DNA from: a virus | DNA: 34,570 nt | Strand: one strand, 5' to 3' | Virus record (IMG/VR): IMGVR_UViG_3300048033_000376 | Span: 1-34,570 of that record | Shown here: positions 1 to 34,570 of the stretch, one piece after another | Numbering within the stretch: position 1 is the first letter of the stretch | Layout: every line of letters begins with the position of its first letter | The notes under the pieces: model-generated | Told to the model about the DNA's origin: nothing | The model's database searches: none | The model's input: only the letters and a program-made list of their open reading frames with translations | Made by a program: the position numbers and the translations under genes

Positions 1-613
1 CAAAAGCGTAAACATTTCTGGCGCTACTGTAGACACTTGGAACAGCACAAATGGATCGGGCATCAATCTCCTTTTCTCTCTTGGGCAGGGAACAACTTAC
101 GCCACAAGCACTGTAGGATCATGGACGTCTGGGAACTTTCATAGCTTAACTACAGAAACAGACTTAATAGCAACTGCATCTGCCACATGGCAAATCACAG
201 GCGTCCAACTCGAAGTAGGCGACACCGCCACCCCCTTCGAACATAGGTCGTATGGGGACGAGCTTGCTAGGTGCCAGAGGTATTATGAAGTGCTTGCAGA
301 AGGCGTCAACGCCTCTAGTGGTTCAGGACACCTTTTAGGCAACATCACACAATACAACAGCACTCTCGCTATCGGTATAGTTCCTTACAAGGTTACTAAA
401 CGGGCACTTCCAACAGGTATTGTTGCTGGCGGTAATGGTTTTCGTGTTTTTTCAGGCGGAAGTTACCAAACATCCTCTAGCGTTGTTGTTGATGGCGACA
501 CAAGCATAACAAAAGCAAGAATAGATATCACAGTAACTGGAACAGCGGGTTTTGCTACATGGGTTCGAGGCCAAGCTAGTACTTGCCTTATAGCTGTAGA
601 TGCGGAGTTATAA
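1..613 (+). CDS. Tail fibre, C-terminal part (5' end outside window)
   Basis: The gene is open from the first base; the first whole codon is at position 2 and the stop is TAA at 611-613. The visible 203 residues are the end of a receptor-binding fibre: a carbohydrate-binding-like beta domain, the junction ITGVQLEVG...TPFEHRSYGDELARCQRYY common in marine phage fibres, then a variable tip of about 110 residues ending DAEL. It is a paralogue or allele of the fibre at 32737-33885. Bases 1-127 equal 33270-33396, similarity falls across the next 170 bases, and the tips are then unrelated apart from the final DAEL. The phase agrees with joining 32737-33269 directly to base 1, giving 381 residues. 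Role inferred from family style: host-surface recognition. The short ATG-started frame at 290 lies inside this gene. Confidence 0.8.
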   Translation, partial: KSVNISGATVDTWNSTNGSGINLLFSLGQGTTYATSTVGSWTSGNFHSLTTETDLIATASATWQITGVQLEVGDTATPFEHRSYGDELARCQRYYEVLAEGVNASSGSGHLLGNITQYNSTLAIGIVPYKVTKRALPTGIVAGGNGFRVFSGGSYQTSSSVVVDGDTSITKARIDITVTGTAGFATWVRGQASTCLIAVDAEL

Positions 614-615
614 TC

Positions 616-798
616 ATGGATAATATGAACATCATATCGGCACAGTACACTGTAGATTTTGACGGCAACAACTCTGGCATCCGTGCCACCATCGACGGTC
701 AGGAGTTGTCAGTCCCCCTCGACCCAGCTAATCGCCACTACGCAGAGATCATGCGGCAGGTCGAGGCTGGAACGCTAACCATCTTGGATGCTGACTAG
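616..798 (+). CDS. Small fibre-associated protein (short DPANRHY family member)
   Basis: This 60-residue protein starts at ATG 616, two bases after the fibre stop, with GGAG at 604-607 as a likely ribosome site. It begins MDNMNIISAQYTVDF and carries the motif VPLDPANRHYAEIM. Nearly the same motif (IPLDPANRHYQEVL) occurs near the start of the much longer protein at 33887-34417, also directly after a fibre gene. Both look like one family of fibre-linked proteins, perhaps assembly chaperones or cap proteins matched to the fibre tip; that role is inferred from position only. This copy lacks the long acidic C-terminal extension. It is the last gene before the terminator at 821-843. Confidence 0.7.
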   Translation: MDNMNIISAQYTVDFDGNNSGIRATIDGQELSVPLDPANRHYAEIMRQVEAGTLTILDAD

Positions 799-898: not shown

Positions 899-3800
899 AT
901 GGCTCTGATTGATCTGAACATTCCGGCTGGCGTTTACCGAAACGGCACTGACCTGCAATCAAAGGGCCGCTGGAGAGACGCAAACCTCGTCCGCTGGCAT
1001 GATGGCGTTATGCGCCCTATAGGTGGATGGCGTACACGATCCTCAGACCAAGCCTCCGCACCACTACGCGGTATGCTGTCTTGGGTTGATAACGGCAACA
1101 ACGCCCACGTCGCATCTGGCAGCTTTGACCGCCTATACGCTTGGAGCGCCGCAGGGTTTATCCAAGACATTACGCCAAGCAACCTCACAGTTGGCCGCAT
1201 TGATGCGGATGCCTTTACAGGCTTCGGCGGCGGCTTCTTCGGCACATCCACATTCGGCACCGTCCGCCCCTTCACATCTCGCGTGCAGCCAGCAACAAGT
1301 TGGAACCTGCAACCGTGGGGCGAATACCTGATCGCCATGAACTCCGATGACGGCAAGATATACGAGTGGGACTTGGGCACTACGCTTGGCGACGAGCTTG
1401 TCCTGACGCCCGACTTTGCCTCAGACACAAACTGGACGAAGGGTAACGGCGGCGCAGGCGGCTCCAACTGGTCCATTGCTGGCGGGATCGCTAAATACGC
1501 TCACCTCATTGAGACCTTTGACGGCGGCGACGATGCTATCGCTGACCCCGCGACTGACACCATCACGATCACTGGCCACGGCCTAGCTGACGGCGATGAG
1601 GTTATCTACAGCGTCCCTGCCGCCCCTGCCACGGCCATCAGCGGCCTGACAGACGGCAACACATATTACATCATCTCGGCCACGGCCAACACGTTCCAGC
1701 TATCTGCCACCTCTGGCGGCGCGGCTGTAAACTTAACGCCAAGCAACTCGCTGACATTTGACGGCGATGACCCAGCGGTTGTGAATACTGCGGCGAATAA
1801 GATCGTCGAGGCCAACACGTTCAGCACTGGCGATTACGTTGAGTATGATAACGGCGGCGGCGTAGACATCGGCGGGCTGACCAACGGTGCAAACTACTAC
1901 ATCATTGCTGCAACTGCATCCGAGTTCCAACTGTCGCTGACATCGGGCGGTGCGGCTATCGACCTGACCCCTGACAACGCTGTCTTGTTTGACGGTGATG
2001 ACGTTGCAGTTGTGGACGTAGCCAGCGATAAAATTCTTGTAGCCAACACATTCGCAGACGGTGACGAGCTTACCTATGACAACGGCGGCGGCGTTGATAT
2101 TGGCGGCCTGACCACTGGCACGAACTACTTTGTTATTAACGCAACAGCCACAGAGTTTCAGCTATCGGCAACTTCTGGCGGTGCTGCGATCACTCTCACA
2201 GCAAACAACTCGGTCACATTTGATGGCGACGATGCGACTGTCGTTGACGTTGCGACTGACACAATCATCCAAGCGAACACGTTCACTTCCGGCGACCTTG
2301 TGACGTATAGCGCTGGCGGCGGTGTGGCTATCGGCGGCCTAACAGATGGTGCCAACTACTTCATTGTCAGCGCCACGGCGACCGACTTCCAACTGTCACT
2401 GACTTCTGGCGGCGCGGCAGTTACCCTCACTGCAAACAACTCTGTCACAGTAGACGCTACCGACGCGGCAGTGGTGGACGTTGCTACAGATGTTATAACA
2501 ATCGCCAACACGTTTGCTGACGGCGAGATCGTGACATACGACAACGGCGGCGGCACTGACATTGCTGGCTTGGTCAACGGCACGGATTACTACATCATCA
2601 ACGCCTCTGCGACTGACTTCCAAGTGTCTGCAACGTCTGGCGGCGCTGCTGTCGATCTTACTGCGCTGGGCACAGGTACAGCCCATGTGTTCCGCCAAGA
2701 CATCGGCTCATCGCATGAGGTTCGTGCAGACATTGGGTCGGCACACACGCTAGATCAGGACATCGGATCGGCTCACTTGTTCCGCGTAGACGCTGGCACT
2801 GGCCACGAGTTGTCACGCCAGAACTACGGCAACCTTGAGCAAGTTGTGGACGGCCTTAACAGCACGATCTACTTCGACGCCACTGACGCGACCGTGGTTG
2901 ACTTTGCCAATGACAAGTTTGTGATTACCTCTGATTTGGTTGAGGACGAGCAGGTAATCTACAACGTAGATGGCGGCACAGCCGTTGGTGGGCTGACAGA
3001 CGGCGCGACTTACTTTGTGGTGAACCGCACTGCAACGACATTCCAGTTGGCCCTCACTGCGGGCGGCACGCCCATCACGCTGACAGGCGTTGGTGTCGGC
3101 ACTACGCATGACTTCCGCAACACGCTGACAGATCGCGACACGCACGCCCTTCTGGTTACTCTGACCGACCCTGACGATGATAGCGACCCCGCAACGGTGC
3201 CGTCTGTTTCCGTACTGGTAACAACTACGGCCACGTCTACCGTGCTTGTGGATGAGGAGTTGGCCTTCGGTGAGAACCGCTTCCACTTCGACACGCTTGA
3301 GGATGAGGTTACGGTTGAGATCATCCCCGCAGCATTTGACACGCCCAACTTTGAGATTGATGACGTGAGCCTGCGGGTGACGCCTACCGCTGACCTTATT
3401 GAAGAAGCACCAATCGACAACCTTGGCATCGTTGTTACCGAGGAGCGCTTCCTGTTTGCTCTCGGCGCTGGCGGCAACCCTCGTAAGGTCCAGTGGTGTG
3501 ATCGCGAGGACAATACGCAGTGGACGCCCGCAACGACCAACGAGGCTGGCGATCTTGAGCTAAACACGTCTGGTCAGCTTATGGCTGGTTGCAATGTACG
3601 CGGCCAAACGCTGCTCCTGACCACCAGAGACGCCCATGTGGCGACATACGTCGGCCCGCCTTACGTTTACGGGATTGAGCGGGTAGGTACGTCCTGTGGG
3701 CTTGCTGCGCCGCAGGCTTACTCTGTTGTGGATGCTGGCTGCTTCTGGATGGGCGTCAACTCATTCTACTCTTACACGGGCAGCCAAGCACAAGAGTTGC

Positions 3801-4378
3801 AAAGCGAAATCTCTGACTACATTTTCAACGACATCAACCGCGCGCAGATCAGCAAGGTGTTTGCGGTGTCCAACAGTATGTTTGGCGAAATCTGGTGGTT
3901 CTACCCAAGTGCAGGATCGCTTGAGAATGACCGCTACGTCACGTTCAACTACATTGAGAACACTTGGAATATCGGTGAGCTTTCCCGCACCGCTGGCGTT
4001 GACCGTGGCGCGTTCCCACTGCCGCAAATGGCTGACCCATCTGACTTCAAGATTTACGAGCATGAAGTTGGGTTTAACTACGACAGCCTTATCCCGTTTG
4101 CTGAAACTGGCCCGCTCATGATCGGCGCTGGCGACACTGTTGCGTCCGTCGTGGAGATGATCCCTGACGAGAAAACGCAGGGCGACGTTGAGGCGACGTT
4201 TAAGACGCGCTTCTATCCCAATGGGACCGAGCGCAGCTATGGACCATATGACATGGCCAATCCGACCTCACTGCGCTTCACTGGCCGTCAGGTGCGTATG
4301 CGGGTCTCAGGCGTTGAGTTTGGCGATTGGCGTGTCGGGGTAAACCGCCTTGACGTTATAAGCGGTGGCCGTAGATGA
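899..4378 (+). CDS. Tail hub / nozzle protein (P22 gp10-like) with large tandem-repeat insertion
   Basis: This 1159-residue protein starts at ATG 899 behind GAGGCG. Its N-terminus (residues 1-160, with RWRDANLVRW, GGWRTRSSD, WGEYLIAMNSDDGKIYEW) and C-terminus (about 810-1159, with NPRKVQWCDRED, FWMGVNSFYSYTG, IWWFYPS, YVTFNYIENTWNIG) are the halves of a phage-stabilisation or nozzle-type beta-propeller, which forms the lower tail of short-tailed phages. P22 gp10 is about 470 residues, so this protein is more than twice that size. The extra length is an insertion between the halves: five adjacent repeats of 77-80 residues (208-598), four ten-residue repeats, then a sixth diverged long repeat (660-739). 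The inserted region probably projects outward as decoration or a host-contact arm; that is inference. It ends with an ATGA overlap with the next gene. Confidence 0.75.
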   Translation: MALIDLNIPAGVYRNGTDLQSKGRWRDANLVRWHDGVMRPIGGWRTRSSDQASAPLRGMLSWVDNGNNAHVASGSFDRLYAWSAAGFIQDITPSNLTVGRIDADAFTGFGGGFFGTSTFGTVRPFTSRVQPATSWNLQPWGEYLIAMNSDDGKIYEWDLGTTLGDELVLTPDFASDTNWTKGNGGAGGSNWSIAGGIAKYAHLIETFDGGDDAIADPATDTITITGHGLADGDEVIYSVPAAPATAISGLTDGNTYYIISATANTFQLSATSGGAAVNLTPSNSLTFDGDDPAVVNTAANKIVEANTFSTGDYVEYDNGGGVDIGGLTNGANYYIIAATASEFQLSLTSGGAAIDLTPDNAVLFDGDDVAVVDVASDKILVANTFADGDELTYDNGGGVDIGGLTTGTNYFVINATATEFQLSATSGGAAITLTANNSVTFDGDDATVVDVATDTIIQANTFTSGDLVTYSAGGGVAIGGLTDGANYFIVSATATDFQLSLTSGGAAVTLTANNSVTVDATDAAVVDVATDVITIANTFADGEIVTYDNGGGTDIAGLVNGTDYYIINASATDFQVSATSGGAAVDLTALGTGTAHVFRQDIGSSHEVRADIGSAHTLDQDIGSAHLFRVDAGTGHELSRQNYGNLEQVVDGLNSTIYFDATDATVVDFANDKFVITSDLVEDEQVIYNVDGGTAVGGLTDGATYFVVNRTATTFQLALTAGGTPITLTGVGVGTTHDFRNTLTDRDTHALLVTLTDPDDDSDPATVPSVSVLVTTTATSTVLVDEELAFGENRFHFDTLEDEVTVEIIPAAFDTPNFEIDDVSLRVTPTADLIEEAPIDNLGIVVTEERFLFALGAGGNPRKVQWCDREDNTQWTPATTNEAGDLELNTSGQLMAGCNVRGQTLLLTTRDAHVATYVGPPYVYGIERVGTSCGLAAPQAYSVVDAGCFWMGVNSFYSYTGSQAQELQSEISDYIFNDINRAQISKVFAVSNSMFGEIWWFYPSAGSLENDRYVTFNYIENTWNIGELSRTAGVDRGAFPLPQMADPSDFKIYEHEVGFNYDSLIPFAETGPLMIGAGDTVASVVEMIPDEKTQGDVEATFKTRFYPNGTERSYGPYDMANPTSLRFTGRQVRMRVSGVEFGDWRVGVNRLDVISGGRR
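1520..2692 (+). repeat. Five tandem 77-80-residue coding repeats in nozzle gene
   Basis: Units start at 1520 (80 codons), 1760, 1991 and 2222 (77 codons each) and 2453 (80 codons). Each runs from a DGDD/DATD start through an ANTF...GD region, GGG..IGGLT.G..Y, and ..ATA..FQLS.TSGGAA..LT. The three central units are exactly 231 bases apart with no indel. A sixth, diverged unit lies at 2876-3115. Confidence 0.9.
2693..2812 (+). repeat. Four tandem 10-residue repeats in nozzle gene
   Basis: Four consecutive 30-base units encode RQDIGSSHEV, RADIGSAHTL, DQDIGSAHLF and RVDAGTGHEL. They lie between the fifth and sixth long repeats, and the DIGS.H core keeps an exact 10-residue period. Confidence 0.85.
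2876..3115 (+). repeat. Sixth, diverged copy of the nozzle long repeat
   Basis: Eighty codons from DATDATVVDF to THDFR keep the GGLTDGATYFVVN and TFQLALTAGG cores of the upstream tandem units. The copy is separated from them by the ten-residue repeats and a linker of about 21 residues. Confidence 0.75.
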
Positions 4379-16663: not shown

Positions 16664-17762
16664 ACAGCGCGCTGCTTACGAGCTTAAACAGGCCGGTCAC
16701 TCGTTTCGCAACATTGCCAAGAAACTTGGGATCAGCAAATCAACCGCTTATATTAACTACACGCGCGCCATGCGCTATCTGGACACCGACCCCGGCGTTC
16801 AAGATGCAATGGGCAAAAGCGGGCTAAATGACATTTCTAAGGTCCATTCTGGCTGGATTAAGACCGACGAAGCCTCACTCTACTTCGTGAACCCCAAGGA
16901 AGAACCAGTAGAGGCGCTGGAAGGCACCATAGAGCGCATCAAGGAGCGTATGCAGGGGATCACACCGCTACCGCCCATAGAAGCGCCCACAGAGGCGGAT
17001 ATTGACCTACTTACGATCTACCCAATTGCTGACGCGCATATCGGTATGCGGGCGATTGAGGCGGAGGCTGGGCAGGAATACAACATCGACATCGCTGCGG
17101 AGCGTATTCGCCGCTCCATTGATGGTCTTGTGGATGCATCGCCAGCCTCGCAAAAAGCAATCATCTTGGACGTTGGCGACCTAACTCACGCCGATGATAC
17201 CAACTACGTTACGCCTAGAAGCAAGCACCCTCTTGATATGAGCGCTACCCAATACGAAAGCATTGACGTTGCTATTGAGGTTTTGTCCGCGTCTATCTTT
17301 GCCGCACTGCGGAAACATCAAGAGGTTTTTGTAAGAATATTGCGCGGCAATCACAACGAAAACAGTTATATTGCGGTAATGTTTGCTCTGCATGAGCGAT
17401 TTAGGGAAAACCCGCGCGTCACCATTGAGAAAACGCCAGCAGATTTCTTTGTTCACGATTTTGGCAAATGTATGTTTGCGGCGCACCACGGCGACAAAGC
17501 AAAGGCTGATCGGCTGGTAATGCATATGGCGCATGAATGGCCGGAGGTCTGGGGCCGCACTAAATGGCGTTATTACTTCACCGGCCACTTGCACCATACA
17601 AAAGTGCAGGACGTGGGCGGCGTGCAGGTTGAGCAATTACGGGCGGCAACGTCACGCGATAAATACGCTGCGACCCATGGATACGTTGGTAGCCCACAGC
17701 TACAAGCAATCACCTACCACAAGGACAATGGCGAGCGCTCACGGGTCAAGATTAACTTCTAA
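16653..17762 (+). CDS. HTH-metallophosphoesterase
   Basis: This 369-residue protein has an N-terminal helix-turn-helix (about 1-40: SFRNIAKKLGISKSTAYINY), a linker, and a calcineurin-like metallophosphoesterase domain from about 120. The metal motifs are complete: DAH (127-129), GDLTH (175-179), GNHNE (232-236), AHHGD (277-281) and GHLHH (311-315). Such enzymes hydrolyse phosphodiesters, and phage members are usually taken as nucleases or phosphatases of unknown target. The HTH suggests it acts at DNA, perhaps at particular sites. It is the last rightward gene before the leftward arm and overlaps the next leftward gene tail to tail by 24 bases. Confidence 0.75.
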   Translation: MTPKQRAAYELKQAGHSFRNIAKKLGISKSTAYINYTRAMRYLDTDPGVQDAMGKSGLNDISKVHSGWIKTDEASLYFVNPKEEPVEALEGTIERIKERMQGITPLPPIEAPTEADIDLLTIYPIADAHIGMRAIEAEAGQEYNIDIAAERIRRSIDGLVDASPASQKAIILDVGDLTHADDTNYVTPRSKHPLDMSATQYESIDVAIEVLSASIFAALRKHQEVFVRILRGNHNENSYIAVMFALHERFRENPRVTIEKTPADFFVHDFGKCMFAAHHGDKAKADRLVMHMAHEWPEVWGRTKWRYYFTGHLHHTKVQDVGGVQVEQLRAATSRDKYAATHGYVGSPQLQAITYHKDNGERSRVKINF

Positions 17763-23234: not shown

Positions 23235-23876
23235 ATGTCTCACTACATGACAGCACTGGCGATGAAGCAAAAAGGGCTGAAGCCAGCTACCAAAATCGTT
23301 TTGTATTGGATTGCAGATCATCACAACGGTGAAACGGGCAAATGCTTCCCCAGCATCGCTCGACTTTCGGCTTTGTGTGAAATTTCCCGTAGGGCTGTGG
23401 AAAACCACATAACCCTGCTCGAAGAAGCTGGTTTAGTAAAGAGGCACCCACAATATCGTGAAACTGGCGGCAAGACCGCAAACAGGTACTCACTGGAACT
23501 TATGGGAACTAATGAGAACGATAGCGATGCGCAAAATCTGCGCATGGTATGCGCAAAATCTGCGTATGGGGATGCGCAAAATCTGCGCATGAATAACCTT
23601 GGAAGTAATAACCTTGGAAATATAACTAATAAATCATCTAAAGATGATCGACTTGATTATGTCTTCAATGAGATTTGGGATTTGTATCCACGAAAGGTCG
23701 GGAAGGGCGCAGCACGCAACGCACTCAAGGCAGCTTTCAAAAAGCACGATGAGGCTGACATCAGGGTTGCTCTTTACGATTACGTTAAGACACTAGACGG
23801 CCAAGACCCGAAATATATTCCACACCTAGCAACATGGTTGAACCAAGAGCGCTGGGCAGATGAGGTAACACAATGA
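23235..23876 (+). CDS. Replication initiator-like HTH protein (lambda O type) containing the origin
   Basis: The 213-residue protein has a winged-HTH N-terminus (about 15-75: TKIVLYWIADHHN, FPSIARLSALCEISRRAVEN, HITLLEEAGLVKRH), as in phage replication proteins of the O/DnaD-like group. A low-complexity middle (about 95-130) contains DAQNLRM twice and NLGSNNLGN. The C-terminal helical domain (about 138-213: FNEIWDLYPRKVGKGAARNA, ...PHLATWLNQERWAD) is typical of primosomal phage proteins. The middle is unusual because it is made by DNA repeats (23527-23590, 23592-23619) best explained as initiator-binding sites. It overlaps the next gene by 4 bases, as O and P do in lambdoid phages. Confidence 0.75.
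   Translation: MSHYMTALAMKQKGLKPATKIVLYWIADHHNGETGKCFPSIARLSALCEISRRAVENHITLLEEAGLVKRHPQYRETGGKTANRYSLELMGTNENDSDAQNLRMVCAKSAYGDAQNLRMNNLGSNNLGNITNKSSKDDRLDYVFNEIWDLYPRKVGKGAARNALKAAFKKHDEADIRVALYDYVKTLDGQDPKYIPHLATWLNQERWADEVTQ
23527..23590. repeat. Three palindromic iterons (candidate replication origin)
   Basis: ATGCGCAAAATCTGCGCAT at 23527-23545 and 23572-23590, and a copy with one change (TGCGTAT end) at 23549-23567. Each is a 7-bp inverted repeat around AAATC. Starts are 22 and 23 bases apart, about two helical turns. The middle copy is read in a different frame from the outer two, so the DNA sequence rather than the peptide is kept. Confidence 0.8.
23592..23640. repeat. Direct repeats and AT-rich segment beside iterons (candidate unwinding element)
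   Basis: AATAACCTTGGAA is repeated at 23592-23604 and 23607-23619 (15-base period) and is followed by an AT-rich run to about 23640. Iterons flanked by an AT-rich segment inside the initiator gene is the layout of the lambda origin. Confidence 0.6.
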
Positions 23877-24594: not shown

Positions 24595-24648
24595 ACATAT
24601 CAAAGCCCCAATTGTATATTGCAGGAGCAAAACATAGAGGGCGCACCC

Positions 24649-25284
24649 ATGGAAAATGGACGGTCTTGGCCAGCAGATAAGGTCGAGCGTAGAAAAATTA
24701 GCAGTATTGTTCCTTACGCTCGGAACAGCAGAACCCACAGCGATGAGCAGGTTGCGCAGATCGCATCCAGCATCAAAGAATGGGGCTTCACTAACCCAAT
24801 CTTAGTAGACATTGACGGCGAGATCATTGCCGGGCATGGCCGCTTACTCGCAGCGCAAAAGCTGGGCCTTGATGAGGTTCCCTGCATTACCGCTGTTGGA
24901 TGGTCTGAAGCGCAAAAGAAAGCCTATGTCATTGCCGATAACAAGCTGGCTATAAACGCTGGCTGGGATGTTGAGTTGTTACGCATTGAGCTTGATGAGC
25001 TAACCGATCTAAATTTTGACGTAAATCTTACAGGCTTTAGCGATGATGAAATCCTAAACCTTTCATTCGACAATGACGCTGAAGCTGAAATGCCTGATCT
25101 GGCCGATGGTGATCGAGAGCCATTCCAGCAGATGACTTTTACAATGCATGACGATCAGGCCGAAGAAGTGCGCGCTGCGATAGAAAAGGCTAAAGCTATG
25201 GGGCCATTTGTTGAAACTGCGAATGAAAACGGCAACGGAAATGCGTTGGCCAGAATTTGTGAGACTTTCAATGGCCTCAGCTAA
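24649..25284 (+). CDS. ParB/Srx-like protein paired with Mom
   Basis: I choose ATG 24649 (211 residues, GAGGGC upstream) over the TTG at 24619. Residues 7-100 are a ParB-like domain: ISSIVPYARNSRTHS, IKEWGFTNPILVDIDGEIIA, GHGRLLAAQKLGL, then AYVIADNKLAINAGWD. Residues about 115-140 (DLNFDVNLTGFSDDEILNLS) match the linker that usually joins such a domain to a DNA methyltransferase, but no methyltransferase follows in this chain. The C-terminal part (QMTFTMHDDQAEEVRAAIEK, NENGNGNALARICE) is of a type I associate with phage ParB proteins next to mom genes. It probably assists DNA modification, perhaps by NTP-dependent DNA binding or nicking. It overlaps mom by 14 bases. Confidence 0.75.
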   Translation: MENGRSWPADKVERRKISSIVPYARNSRTHSDEQVAQIASSIKEWGFTNPILVDIDGEIIAGHGRLLAAQKLGLDEVPCITAVGWSEAQKKAYVIADNKLAINAGWDVELLRIELDELTDLNFDVNLTGFSDDEILNLSFDNDAEAEMPDLADGDREPFQQMTFTMHDDQAEEVRAAIEKAKAMGPFVETANENGNGNALARICETFNGLS

Positions 25285-25999
25285 AGACATAGTGGTTAAG
25301 CCGATCACGGCGCAGGCAGCGAAAAAGCTGGTGAAGGCAATTCATTACAGCGGGAAAGTTGCAGCAAATTCTCAGCTTCACTTTGGGGTTTTCCTTAACG
25401 GAAGGCTCGAGGGCGCAATGCAATTTGGTCCATCGCTCGACAAACGAAAGACCCAGGGGCTTGTCGAGGGGACTGGTTGGAACGGCTTTCTTGAACTGAA
25501 CCGCATGGCCTTTTCCGATGTTCTTCCTCGAAACAGCGAAAGCAGGGCGCTTGGCGTTGCGATGCGGTTAATCAAAAAGCACTATCCGCACATTGAGTGG
25601 GTGATTAGTTTTTCAGATGGGACGCAGTGCGGGGATGGCACAATCTATCGCGCAAGCGGGTTTGTTCTGACTGGCATCAAGAAGAATACCAGTATTTGGG
25701 AAGCGCCAGATGGATCAACCGCAACAGATTTAAGCCTTCGACTTGGATTGCAGAATAAAGCGCCAAAGGTGATCAGTAAAACGACTATGACAAAGGGCAA
25801 AGCCATAACCCAAACTGGCGCGTCTTCAATGAAGCCATTTAGAGAGGCTGGATATAAGCCAAAAGAAGGCTTCCAACTTCGATATGTTTACTTCCTTACC
25901 CCAAAGGCAAAAGAAAGGCTAACAGTTCCTATTTTACCGTTCAGCAAAATTGACGAGATGGGCGCTGGTATGTATAAAGGGGAAAAGCGTGACAAGTAG
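25271..25999 (+). CDS. mom: Mom-type adenine modification enzyme
   Basis: ATG 25271 gives 242 residues, close to the length of Mu Mom; the frame is open from 25208 but earlier starts lie inside the ParB gene. The GNAT-like Mom pattern includes AIHYSGKV with His25-Tyr26, LHFGVFLNGRLEGAMQFGPS, FLELNRMAFSD, LGVAMRLIKKHYPHIEWVIS, FSDGTQCGDGTIYRASGF. Mu Mom converts adenines in phage DNA to a carbamoylmethyl form and so blocks many restriction enzymes. It has no good ribosome site of its own (GAGACTTTCA), so it is probably translated by coupling to the ParB gene, keeping a toxic modifier low. Sequence specificity is unknown. Confidence 0.75.
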   Translation: MASAKDIVVKPITAQAAKKLVKAIHYSGKVAANSQLHFGVFLNGRLEGAMQFGPSLDKRKTQGLVEGTGWNGFLELNRMAFSDVLPRNSESRALGVAMRLIKKHYPHIEWVISFSDGTQCGDGTIYRASGFVLTGIKKNTSIWEAPDGSTATDLSLRLGLQNKAPKVISKTTMTKGKAITQTGASSMKPFREAGYKPKEGFQLRYVYFLTPKAKERLTVPILPFSKIDEMGAGMYKGEKRDK

Positions 26000-31871: not shown

Positions 31872-32737
31872 TGTCTAACATCACACTAAACCCCAACGCA
31901 TCTGGCACGGGCACGTTTTCAATAGCCTCTCCGAATAGCAACGCCGACCGCACGCTGACACTGCCCGACAGCGACGGCGAACTGGCTTCCTTTGACAGCA
32001 GCGGTAACTTGGGGATTGGGACGAGTTCGCCTAGTACTCAGCTTGAAGTAGTAAATAATAACAGCAACTTGGCTAGGGTGCGTGTGAGTACGACAAGCAC
32101 AACGGCTGGAAACTATCGGGGCTACGAGTTTGCCCAAGGCAGCACTTTCAAGGGTGGACTGCTGCAAGATCAATCCAATGATGCTATTAGTGTTTTCACG
32201 CCAATTGGCGGTCAGTCTGTAACCATCGACAACAGCGGGCGGTTTATGGTGGGAAGCACCACTACTCTTGGTGGGAATATAAACACAGTTACCAGTGCGT
32301 CCACTTGGGGCATCTCGATTAAAGATGTCGTAAACAACCAAGCACTTATGAGGTTTCAAAATGCAAGCGCCTCACAGGTAGGCTCTATCCAACATAACGG
32401 TACTTCCACCTCATACGTCACCACCTCTGACTACCGCCTAAAGACTGACGCACAGCCAATGACAGGCGCATCTGCCCGTGTCCAAGCACTGAACCCAGTG
32501 AACTTTGAGTGGATTGCAGACGGCACCCGTGTAGATGGTTTCCTTGCACATGAAGCACAGGCTGTAGTTCCAGAAGCTGTCACAGGCACGAAGGACGCAG
32601 TGGACGCAGATGGCAACCCAGACTACCAAGGCATCGACCAATCGAAGCTGGTGCCACTGCTGACGGCTGCACTGCAAGAAGCCTTAACTGAAATCACCGA
32701 CCTTAAGGCACGGGTCGCAGCATTGGAGGCAGTGTAA
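31871..32737 (+). CDS. Tail fibre with self-cleaving S74 intramolecular chaperone
   Basis: The 288-residue protein begins MSNITLNPNASGTGTFSIAS with the fibre motif DSSGNLGIGTSSPSTQLEV (42-60). Residues about 183-288 are a peptidase S74 chaperone domain: TTSDYRLKTD with Ser186 and Lys191, NPVNFEWIADG, DGFLAHEAQAVVPEAV, then a coiled-coil end (LVPLLTAALQEALTEITDLK). Ser and Lys five apart equal the endosialidase cleavage pair. The domain helps trimer folding and then cuts itself off before Ser186, leaving a fibre of about 185 residues. The start overlaps the previous stop. Confidence 0.85.
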   Translation: MSNITLNPNASGTGTFSIASPNSNADRTLTLPDSDGELASFDSSGNLGIGTSSPSTQLEVVNNNSNLARVRVSTTSTTAGNYRGYEFAQGSTFKGGLLQDQSNDAISVFTPIGGQSVTIDNSGRFMVGSTTTLGGNINTVTSASTWGISIKDVVNNQALMRFQNASASQVGSIQHNGTSTSYVTTSDYRLKTDAQPMTGASARVQALNPVNFEWIADGTRVDGFLAHEAQAVVPEAVTGTKDAVDADGNPDYQGIDQSKLVPLLTAALQEALTEITDLKARVAALEAV

Positions 32738-33885
32738 TGTCCACACTTAAAGTAGATAGCATCGTAGACGGCGGCGGCTCTGGCGCTCCAACGGCCCCGA
32801 ATGGCCTGACCGTCGGCACCACGGCAATTCCTACATCGGGTGCCTTGTCTAACCGCAACCTGATTATCAATGGTGGTATGGTCATAAGCCAACGCTATGG
32901 AGCTGCATCACAATCCCCTGCACCATCTGGTTATGGGATTGACAGATGGGCCACATATAAAAGTGGAGCAGGGACATTTAGCATCCAACAATCAACGGAT
33001 GGGCCTTCAGGGTTTTCTAATTCTGCTTTAATAACTGTGACATCAAATTCTACGCCTTCTGGCGGAGATTATTATATCTTTCAACACCCAATTGAAGGGT
33101 ACAATATGTCTCAACTTGATTGGGGAGCATCTGGCGCAAAAGATGTGACGCTTTCATTTTGGGTAAAGTCTTCTGTTACAGGTACTTTTGGCGGATCGCT
33201 CCGATCTTCAACGGGTAATTATAGTTACGTCTTTGATTACACTGTCAACTCTTCAAGCACATGGGAGTACAAAAGCGTAAACATTTCTGGCGCTACTGTA
33301 GACACTTGGAACAGCACAAATGGATCGGGCATCAATCTCCTTTTCTCTCTTGGGCAGGGAACAACTTACGCCACAAGCACTGTAGGATCATGGACGGCTG
33401 GGAACTTTCATAGCTCAACTACAGAAACAGACTTCATTGCGAATGCCTCCGCCACCTTCCAAATCACAGGTGTCCAACTAGAAGTAGGCAAAGTCGCCAC
33501 GCCTTTTGAACACCGATCCTATGGGGAAGAACTGGCGTTGTGCCAGCGGTATTATTGGAAACTTGGTGATCGCAATGGGACGAATATTCCTATTGGGATT
33601 GGTTCGTACACAACAGGAAGTTCTGGTGGCAATAGGATTGATGTAGTTATTACTTTACCTACAACAATGCGGACAACGCCATCTGCGATTGTTGCATATG
33701 GTACAAACTATTACGATTTTTACTCAACAAGTGACGACTTCTTTTCAGATATTGATATTGGAGATGCGACAAACACTTTTGTAAATTTACGACGAGGAGG
33801 TGACGTAAGTGGAACTCAGGGAGTTGCAGGTTATGTCTTAATGACAACAGATGGTGCATCCATTGCATTCGATGCGGAGTTATAA
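32737..33885 (+). CDS. Tail fibre with carbohydrate-binding-like domain, tip variant B
   Basis: The 382-residue protein has an N-terminal MSTLKVDSIVDGGGSGAPTA, the motif SNRNLIINGGMVISQRYGA (38-56), a beta-sandwich region (LSFWVKSSVTGTFGGSLRS to TFQITGVQLEVG) and a variable tip after EELALCQRYYWKL ending DAEL. The beta-sandwich resembles carbohydrate-binding modules. Bases 33270-33396 are identical to the start of the window, after which this copy and that one drift apart and then differ fully in the tip. It probably determines host range. The start overlaps the S74 fibre stop. Confidence 0.75.
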   Translation: MSTLKVDSIVDGGGSGAPTAPNGLTVGTTAIPTSGALSNRNLIINGGMVISQRYGAASQSPAPSGYGIDRWATYKSGAGTFSIQQSTDGPSGFSNSALITVTSNSTPSGGDYYIFQHPIEGYNMSQLDWGASGAKDVTLSFWVKSSVTGTFGGSLRSSTGNYSYVFDYTVNSSSTWEYKSVNISGATVDTWNSTNGSGINLLFSLGQGTTYATSTVGSWTAGNFHSSTTETDFIANASATFQITGVQLEVGKVATPFEHRSYGEELALCQRYYWKLGDRNGTNIPIGIGSYTTGSSGGNRIDVVITLPTTMRTTPSAIVAYGTNYYDFYSTSDDFFSDIDIGDATNTFVNLRRGGDVSGTQGVAGYVLMTTDGASIAFDAEL

Positions 33886-33886
33886 T

Positions 33887-34417
33887 ATGATGTATTCAAC
33901 TATTATATGGGATGAAAAGCTGTTTGGGATAAAAGCTGAAGGCGTAAAAATCCCCCTAGACCCTGCAAACCGCCACTATCAGGAAGTGCTAGACGCAATC
34001 ATTGAACAAGGCGCAGACTGCTTTGACGGTGATATTCCTGCTGACCTACAGGCAGCGGCAGACGAAAAGCAGTTCAACCAACAGCTTGCAGACTACCGTG
34101 TAGCAGTGGCCCGACTAGCGCAATACATCGTTGCAGATGGACGTGAAGAAGTCACTGAGATGCAGCCTACAGGTGAACAGGTGTTCAACGAAGAAACAAT
34201 GGAAATGGAAGATGTGATGCATGAGGTTATCACAGTCACAGCCATTGAACCTGTTGAGCCTACAGTCACACGCATGGTGTACTCTGAGGATGACCCAATG
34301 GCAGAGCCCACAGAGGAAACCATTGAAAACCCTGTAATCACAACAGACAACGAAGAACGTGCAGCGGCTCAGGCTGTTGTTGATGCTACACCACAGGCGG
34401 TCATTGAGGCTGCATAA
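33887..34417 (+). CDS. Fibre-associated protein, long DPANRHY family member
   Basis: The 176-residue protein starts at ATG 33887, just after the fibre stop (a second ATG at 33890 is equally possible). The N-terminus MMYSTIIWDEKLFGIK and the motif VKIPLDPANRHYQEVLDAII match the short protein at 616-798. It then has a long acidic extension (about 60-176), rich in Glu, Thr and Val, with helical QFNQQLADYRVAVARLAQYI. It may be a chaperone or cap for the fibre tip encoded before it. Confidence 0.65.
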   Translation: MMYSTIIWDEKLFGIKAEGVKIPLDPANRHYQEVLDAIIEQGADCFDGDIPADLQAAADEKQFNQQLADYRVAVARLAQYIVADGREEVTEMQPTGEQVFNEETMEMEDVMHEVITVTAIEPVEPTVTRMVYSEDDPMAEPTEETIENPVITTDNEERAAAQAVVDATPQAVIEAA

Positions 34418-34570
34418 TGTCAGACACAACGAGTACAAACGACAGTTGGCACCTGTCTAAGTCTGTGCCAATCACGCTAATCTTTGGTCTCCTCGTTCAA
34501 GCGGGGGCCATAGTATGGACCGTCAGTATGATGATGGCTGACATCGAGTCAAACATGCGCGACATCATGG
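34417..34570 (+). CDS. Membrane protein, 3' end outside window
   Basis: The reading frame starts in the overlap TAATG and runs off the window end. The 51 visible residues are MSDTTSTNDSWHLSKSVPIT, then one membrane helix (about 20-40, LIFGLLVQAGAIVWTVSMMM) and a polar DIESNMRDIM. I associate such small proteins with lysis (holin-like) or virion membrane roles. A lysis module already exists at 14785-16663, which leaves its role open. Confidence 0.6.
   Translation, partial: MSDTTSTNDSWHLSKSVPITLIFGLLVQAGAIVWTVSMMMADIESNMRDIM

Follow-up and report, generated by a model that had tools for sequence, protein, structure and literature searches.

Genes and repeated sequence at the ends of the window

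The window (the whole 34,570-nt stretch of viral DNA analysed here) encodes packaging, head, tail, lysis and replication genes, and its capsid protein matches Pfam SU10_MCP. Tail-fibre sequence lies near both ends, followed in each case by a chaperone-like gene (Table 1). Base-level comparison confirms the starting observation of an earlier note on this DNA, namely that bases 1–127 are identical to bases 33270–33396, with the first mismatch at base 128 (T, against G at 33397). Counted with its exact part, the match extends across 286 nt at 89% identity, the 158 nt after the exact part being ∼81% identical. Past these 158 nt, the fibre copies diverge and are alike again only at the start of the downstream chaperone-like genes. 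The second-longest exact repeat within the window measures 21 nt; thus, the 127-nt match is not a product of chance. Its second copy is interior, with a further 1,174 nt beyond it, so that the overlap does not occupy both ends of the contig.

Table 1. Features at the two ends of the window (all on the + strand)
Feature	Coordinates	Strand	Basis
K-mer overlap, copy 1; contig start inside the tail-fibre gene	1..127	+	Exact match to 33270–33396
Fibre C-terminal tip, left arm, leading into the phage's own tail gene	128..613	+	PHROG 4492, tail fibre
Short fibre-associated chaperone-like ORF	616..798	+	Directly after this fibre in dozens of contigs
Tail/head-stabilization-type protein, next core gene	899..4378	+	PHROG 3287; syntenic with DB virus 2 gp13
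Fibre N-terminal part, probably joined to base 1 when closed	32737..33269	+	Joined ORF of 381 aa without a stop
K-mer overlap, copy 2; branching site within the fibre gene	33270..33396	+	Exact match to 1–127
Alternative fibre C-terminal tip	33397..33885	+	∼81% identity with the left arm across 158 nt, unrelated beyond
Chaperone-like ORF of the right-arm fibre, 176 aa	33887..34417	+	Nucleotide identity; position behind a fibre in dozens of contigs
Small membrane-protein gene, first part only, truncated at the contig end	34417..34570	+	Nucleotide identity over ∼130 nt

On the left side, the fibre copy is truncated by the contig start, and its tip is 84% identical at the nucleotide level to locus L163 across 413 nt. 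In L428, the nearest relative, a stem of the type at 32737..33269 is found together with a tip, a short ORF resembling 616–798 and a distant homologue of the tail gene; the position of ORF 616..798 suggests its chaperone role. The tail protein itself carries an insertion of about six degenerate repeats of ∼75 aa (residues ∼195–750), and most relatives align to residues 1–159 and 838–1159 only.

The 127-nt overlap as an assembly mark

Among related contigs, exact overlaps between a contig end and the interior of another contig peak at 123, 126 and 127 nt (10, 12 and 13 ends, respectively), against mostly 1–4 ends for each other length in the range 100–150 nt. End overlaps equal to maxK (or maxK-1 for IDBA_UD) have been described as characteristic of contig breaks at repeats, shared regions or sites of local variation (COBRA, PMC10914622). 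Because the overlaps of related contigs peak at the very length seen here, and in view of this description, the 127 nt are the mark of an assembler branch, a k-mer signature, and not a biological unit. The proposal of the earlier note that such an overlap is left by a k=127 de Bruijn assembly at a branch is therefore supported. As in the breaks described for COBRA, the overlap in the window is exactly an assembler k (127) at a branch; it differs from them in that the contig end matches its own interior, in the manner of a lasso, rather than another end. Because of the interior position of that second copy, the lasso goes unnoticed in an end-to-end check; the note had expected terminal-repeat checks to miss it. 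A contig whose end equals its interior is a known kind of assembly effect and not new biology.

Gene order and closed relatives

Among the closest known counterparts is Octadecabacter Antarctic DB virus 2 (MW805364), an isolate record that is circular and measures 39,241 bp. Its order of terminase, tail tubular, fibre/spike, tail, hydrolase, portal, scaffold, capsid and lysis genes is common with the window, and the portal and tail gene are 48% and ∼57% identical, respectively, where aligned. It differs by being ∼6 kb larger, by its other fibres and by more distant terminase and replication genes. Homologous portal, capsid, tail gene and hydrolase in the same order place the window in a DB virus 2-like podovirus lineage. 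In relatives, gene order is continuous from terL through ORFs 28759, 29035, 29656, 30045 and 30790 to the fibres and the tail gene (899–4378), and from there through 4375, 5094 and 6245 to portal, scaffold and capsid. Read over the joint between 33269 and base 1, the order in the window (terL, 29035, 29656, 30790, fibres, tail gene, portal, capsid) matches that of relatives, as compared with G021 and DB virus 2 and, in part, with L085 and G022. Given this continuity in relatives and in DB virus 2, both ends of the window lie in a single gap, the one that separates fibre and tail gene.

Several relatives are themselves closed. G009 (portal 83% identical) has an exact end repeat of 99 nt and makes a circle of 32,686 bp; G024 (portal 81%) has one of 123 nt and makes a circle of 35,419 bp. 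G004 and G005 (L410–L413) have end repeats that are imperfect (215 and 249 nt, ≥99% identity); an end check based on exact matches would not see these repeats whole. Searching for circles in relatives, as the note had advised, gives closed sizes of 32,184–39,241 bp, which bracket 33,269. Further relatives are lassos: the end equals the interior over exactly 126 nt in G022 (portal 85%; overhang of 192 nt, 93% like the other arm) and in G002 (overhang of 19 nt), and over exactly 55 nt in G007 (overhang of 357 nt, 82% like the other arm). These three IMG/VR contigs of the wider lineage resemble the window in that a contig end equals an interior stretch; their overhangs differ in being short and homologous to the other arm, and a position in the fibre gene is no part of the likeness. 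Of 363 loci, most of them partial, a single one shows an end self-match that reaches 30 nt (it is 33 nt long). Thus, the signature of the window goes with full-length closed genomes, and the opening of relatives' contigs at different places indicates that their ends are not fixed physical ends.

An illustration of what can happen at the fibre locus is the sister-lineage contig G008 (L304–L306; IMGVR_UViG_3300032087_000961; 49,618 bp, portal 85%), which combines a siphovirus-type part with a podovirus genome. Its first ∼16 kb carry their own terminase, portal, capsid and siphovirus-type central tail fibre, and then lead via fibre genes into the podovirus genome, whose end matches the contig's own positions 16988–17224 at 95%, giving a circle of 32,394 bp. 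The sister contig G010 matches G008 at 100% identity across 31,282 bp and is without the siphovirus-type part. Because its head and packaging genes are doubled, and because G010 lacks the additional part, G008 is best taken as an assembly chimera formed at the fibre locus, and not as a real recombinant.

The right arm

The sequence after the second copy (33397–34570) has its nearest matches elsewhere. Its chaperone-like ORF, of a type found after a fibre in contigs of varied lineages, reaches 94% nucleotide identity to L243 across 452 nt and 91% to L246. The truncated gene at 34417–34570 is 94–96% identical at the nucleotide level across ∼130 nt to L506, L508, L511–L513 and L522, and its product is 70–74% identical in amino acids to those of the roseophages CRP-804, CRP-403 and CRP-118. 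It has no PHROGs or Pfam match and is holin-like by position only. Related genes occur in 79 of the loci fetched, and in none of these do core genes of the window's lineage appear at ≥45% identity. In CRP-804 and CRP-118 (Autographiviridae), as well as in the lineage of G035, which has a Phage_capsid_4 capsid, a DnaB-type helicase and an integrase, the gene lies downstream of a fibre gene and of chaperone or assembly genes. The Roseobacter phages CRP-804, CRP-118 and CRP-403 share with the window a membrane gene of the right-arm type after fibre/assembly genes; they differ from it in belonging to another phage family, and no close core-gene relation to the body of the window was found. In the window's own lineage, a distant homologue (33–36% amino acid identity) is located after the capsid gene, and no fetched locus of this lineage has a membrane gene of this type between the fibre and the tail gene. 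Since the last gene follows fibre and chaperone genes in other phage lineages and not in this one, the right arm looks foreign, i.e. it does not resemble this phage's usual sequence. Composition is not decisive, with a tetranucleotide distance at the 77th percentile of the body and a GC content of 0.47 against 0.51. A search for T7 RNA polymerase gave no match in contigs of the donor type, and the controls were likewise empty.

Within the fibre, a hinge of ∼100 nt (33458–33558 and 186–286; LEVG..ATPFEHRSYG.EL..CQRYY) is a likely crossover site for the exchange of tips. On the right arm, its DNA is 95–99% identical to that of several other phage contigs, which argues for exchange of fibre tips at the DNA level. 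This fits the variable host-recognition regions reported in marine phages (PMC3909814).

A probable closed genome and its alternatives

Collectively, these data point to a closed genome of ∼33,269 bp and to another genome or strain as the source of the right arm, a reading to which we give a probability of about 0.76. The window would be a lasso-shaped metagenome contig of a circularly assembled marine roseophage of podovirus type, with 33269 adjacent to base 1; the genome is probably circular or circularly permuted, and complete or near-complete. At k = 127, the assembler would have met a branch inside the tail-fibre gene, at a shared 127-mer from which one path leads, starting at base 128, to the fibre tip, chaperone and tail gene that belong to the phage itself, and the other to a different fibre tip, chaperone and membrane-protein gene (33397–34570). 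The contig would begin at the first branch, circle the genome once back to the shared 127-mer and exit by the second, which may come from a co-occurring phage or strain with the same fibre stem; a different genome as the origin of the right arm is what its matches suggest. The complete circle at 1–33269 envisaged in the earlier note therefore gains from the gene order, sizes and lassos of relatives, but the note missed the foreign look of the overhang. Its remark that the fibre reads in frame through the joint is correct as arithmetic (533 + 613 = 1146 nt, 381 aa uninterrupted by a stop codon, whereas the copy within the window has 382 aa). As evidence of closure it was rejected: both copies are homologous and in the same codon phase anyway, so the open frame carries no weight.

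Some observations speak against closure. An exact search of IMG/VR with the core of the 127-mer found no independent contig spanning 33269 to 128; the overhang of 1,174 nt is longer than in the exact-overlap lassos and is homologous to the other arm for 158 nt only; and from ORF 29035 to the tail gene the distance is mostly 6–8.5 kb in the nearest relatives, compared with 5.1 kb when base 1 directly follows 33269, which would make the absence of a cassette unsurprising. Some relatives also have more than one fibre gene. One genome might accordingly hold two tandem fibre cassettes that share at least 127 identical bases, the first ending in the chaperone and membrane-protein genes and the second leading into the tail gene, with the stretch from 34570 to base 1 left unassembled. 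Such an arrangement has models: G007 has two fibre/chaperone cassettes ahead of the tail gene, as do L172 and L214–L216; three or four paralogous genes of fibre type are present in G021 and L094; in L278/G015, a fibre and then the same chaperone type precede the tail gene; and the spacing of the fibre region in close relatives would allow it. Fibre-region size was nevertheless dropped as a discriminator, being unable to choose between closure and tandem fibres. Against tandem cassettes, ∼3.7 Mb of related loci contain no exact repeat of at least 45 nt with copies >300 nt apart, and pairs of fibre copies on the same contig match exactly over 44 nt at most (L167), although this survey is partly biased in that repeats of at least 127 nt would break contigs. 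Moreover, a distinct second stem should, from what would be expected of the assembler, have let the contig extend left of base 1, and the position of the membrane gene ahead of the tail gene would be without parallel in the fetched loci of this lineage. Overall, tandem cassettes are an unlikely account of the window. Still less probable is their extended form, a single phage with two receptor-binding cassettes, one of them a fibre–chaperone–membrane-protein block imported from another phage family, in which the shared stem of at least 127 nt permits tip switching.

The closed circle is compatible with either of two origins of the right arm. Both arms may be alleles of one species, the right one coming from a strain whose version is longer and includes an additional membrane gene upstream of the tail gene; this divides the closure reading internally and does not compete with it, as the 33,269-bp circle holds either way. 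The overhangs of G022, G007 and G002 do look like strain variants. The close matches of the last ∼130 nt to contigs of other lineages, and the low protein identity and different site of the own-lineage homologues, make this origin improbable. It is hardly credible that the genome is linear and that the repeat is a true biological end structure, such as a terminal repeat or packaging site, which happens to measure 127 nt and is followed by unique sequence. The repeat does touch one contig end, but its other copy is interior, inside coding sequence, and its length is exactly an assembler k; end repeats of relatives (99, 123, 126 and 55 nt) lie at different genome positions, and DB virus 2, an isolate, has a circular record. 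These grounds led to the rejection of a genuine terminal repeat, overlap lengths being equal to assembler k values and positions differing between relatives.

Consequences for annotation

If the genome is closed as proposed, the record is a complete or near-complete roseophage genome not recognized as closed, and annotation should leave the last 1.2 kb out of that genome. A contig end that equals the interior over one assembler k is a cheap sign of closure, unused by end-to-end repeat checks; it is present in at least three other relatives, two more having imperfect end repeats. The fibre locus is, on the example of G008, a place where contigs of unrelated phages can fuse, which bears on host prediction and on claims of fibre exchange. 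If instead one phage had two cassettes, internal recombination at the identical stem could let it switch fibre tips.

Other features of the window

Two further features lie in the body of the window. The ORF at 25208–25999 (+) encodes a DNA-modification protein of the Mom family (Pfam PF25680, E 1.6e-54); it overlaps an ORF with a ParB_N domain (24619–25284), and the true start of Mom may be further downstream. Three tandem, near-palindromic repeats of 23 bp are found at 23526–23591 within an HTH_36 (helix-turn-helix) ORF (23235–23876) that resembles a replication initiator, an arrangement reminiscent of the lambda origin inside gene O.
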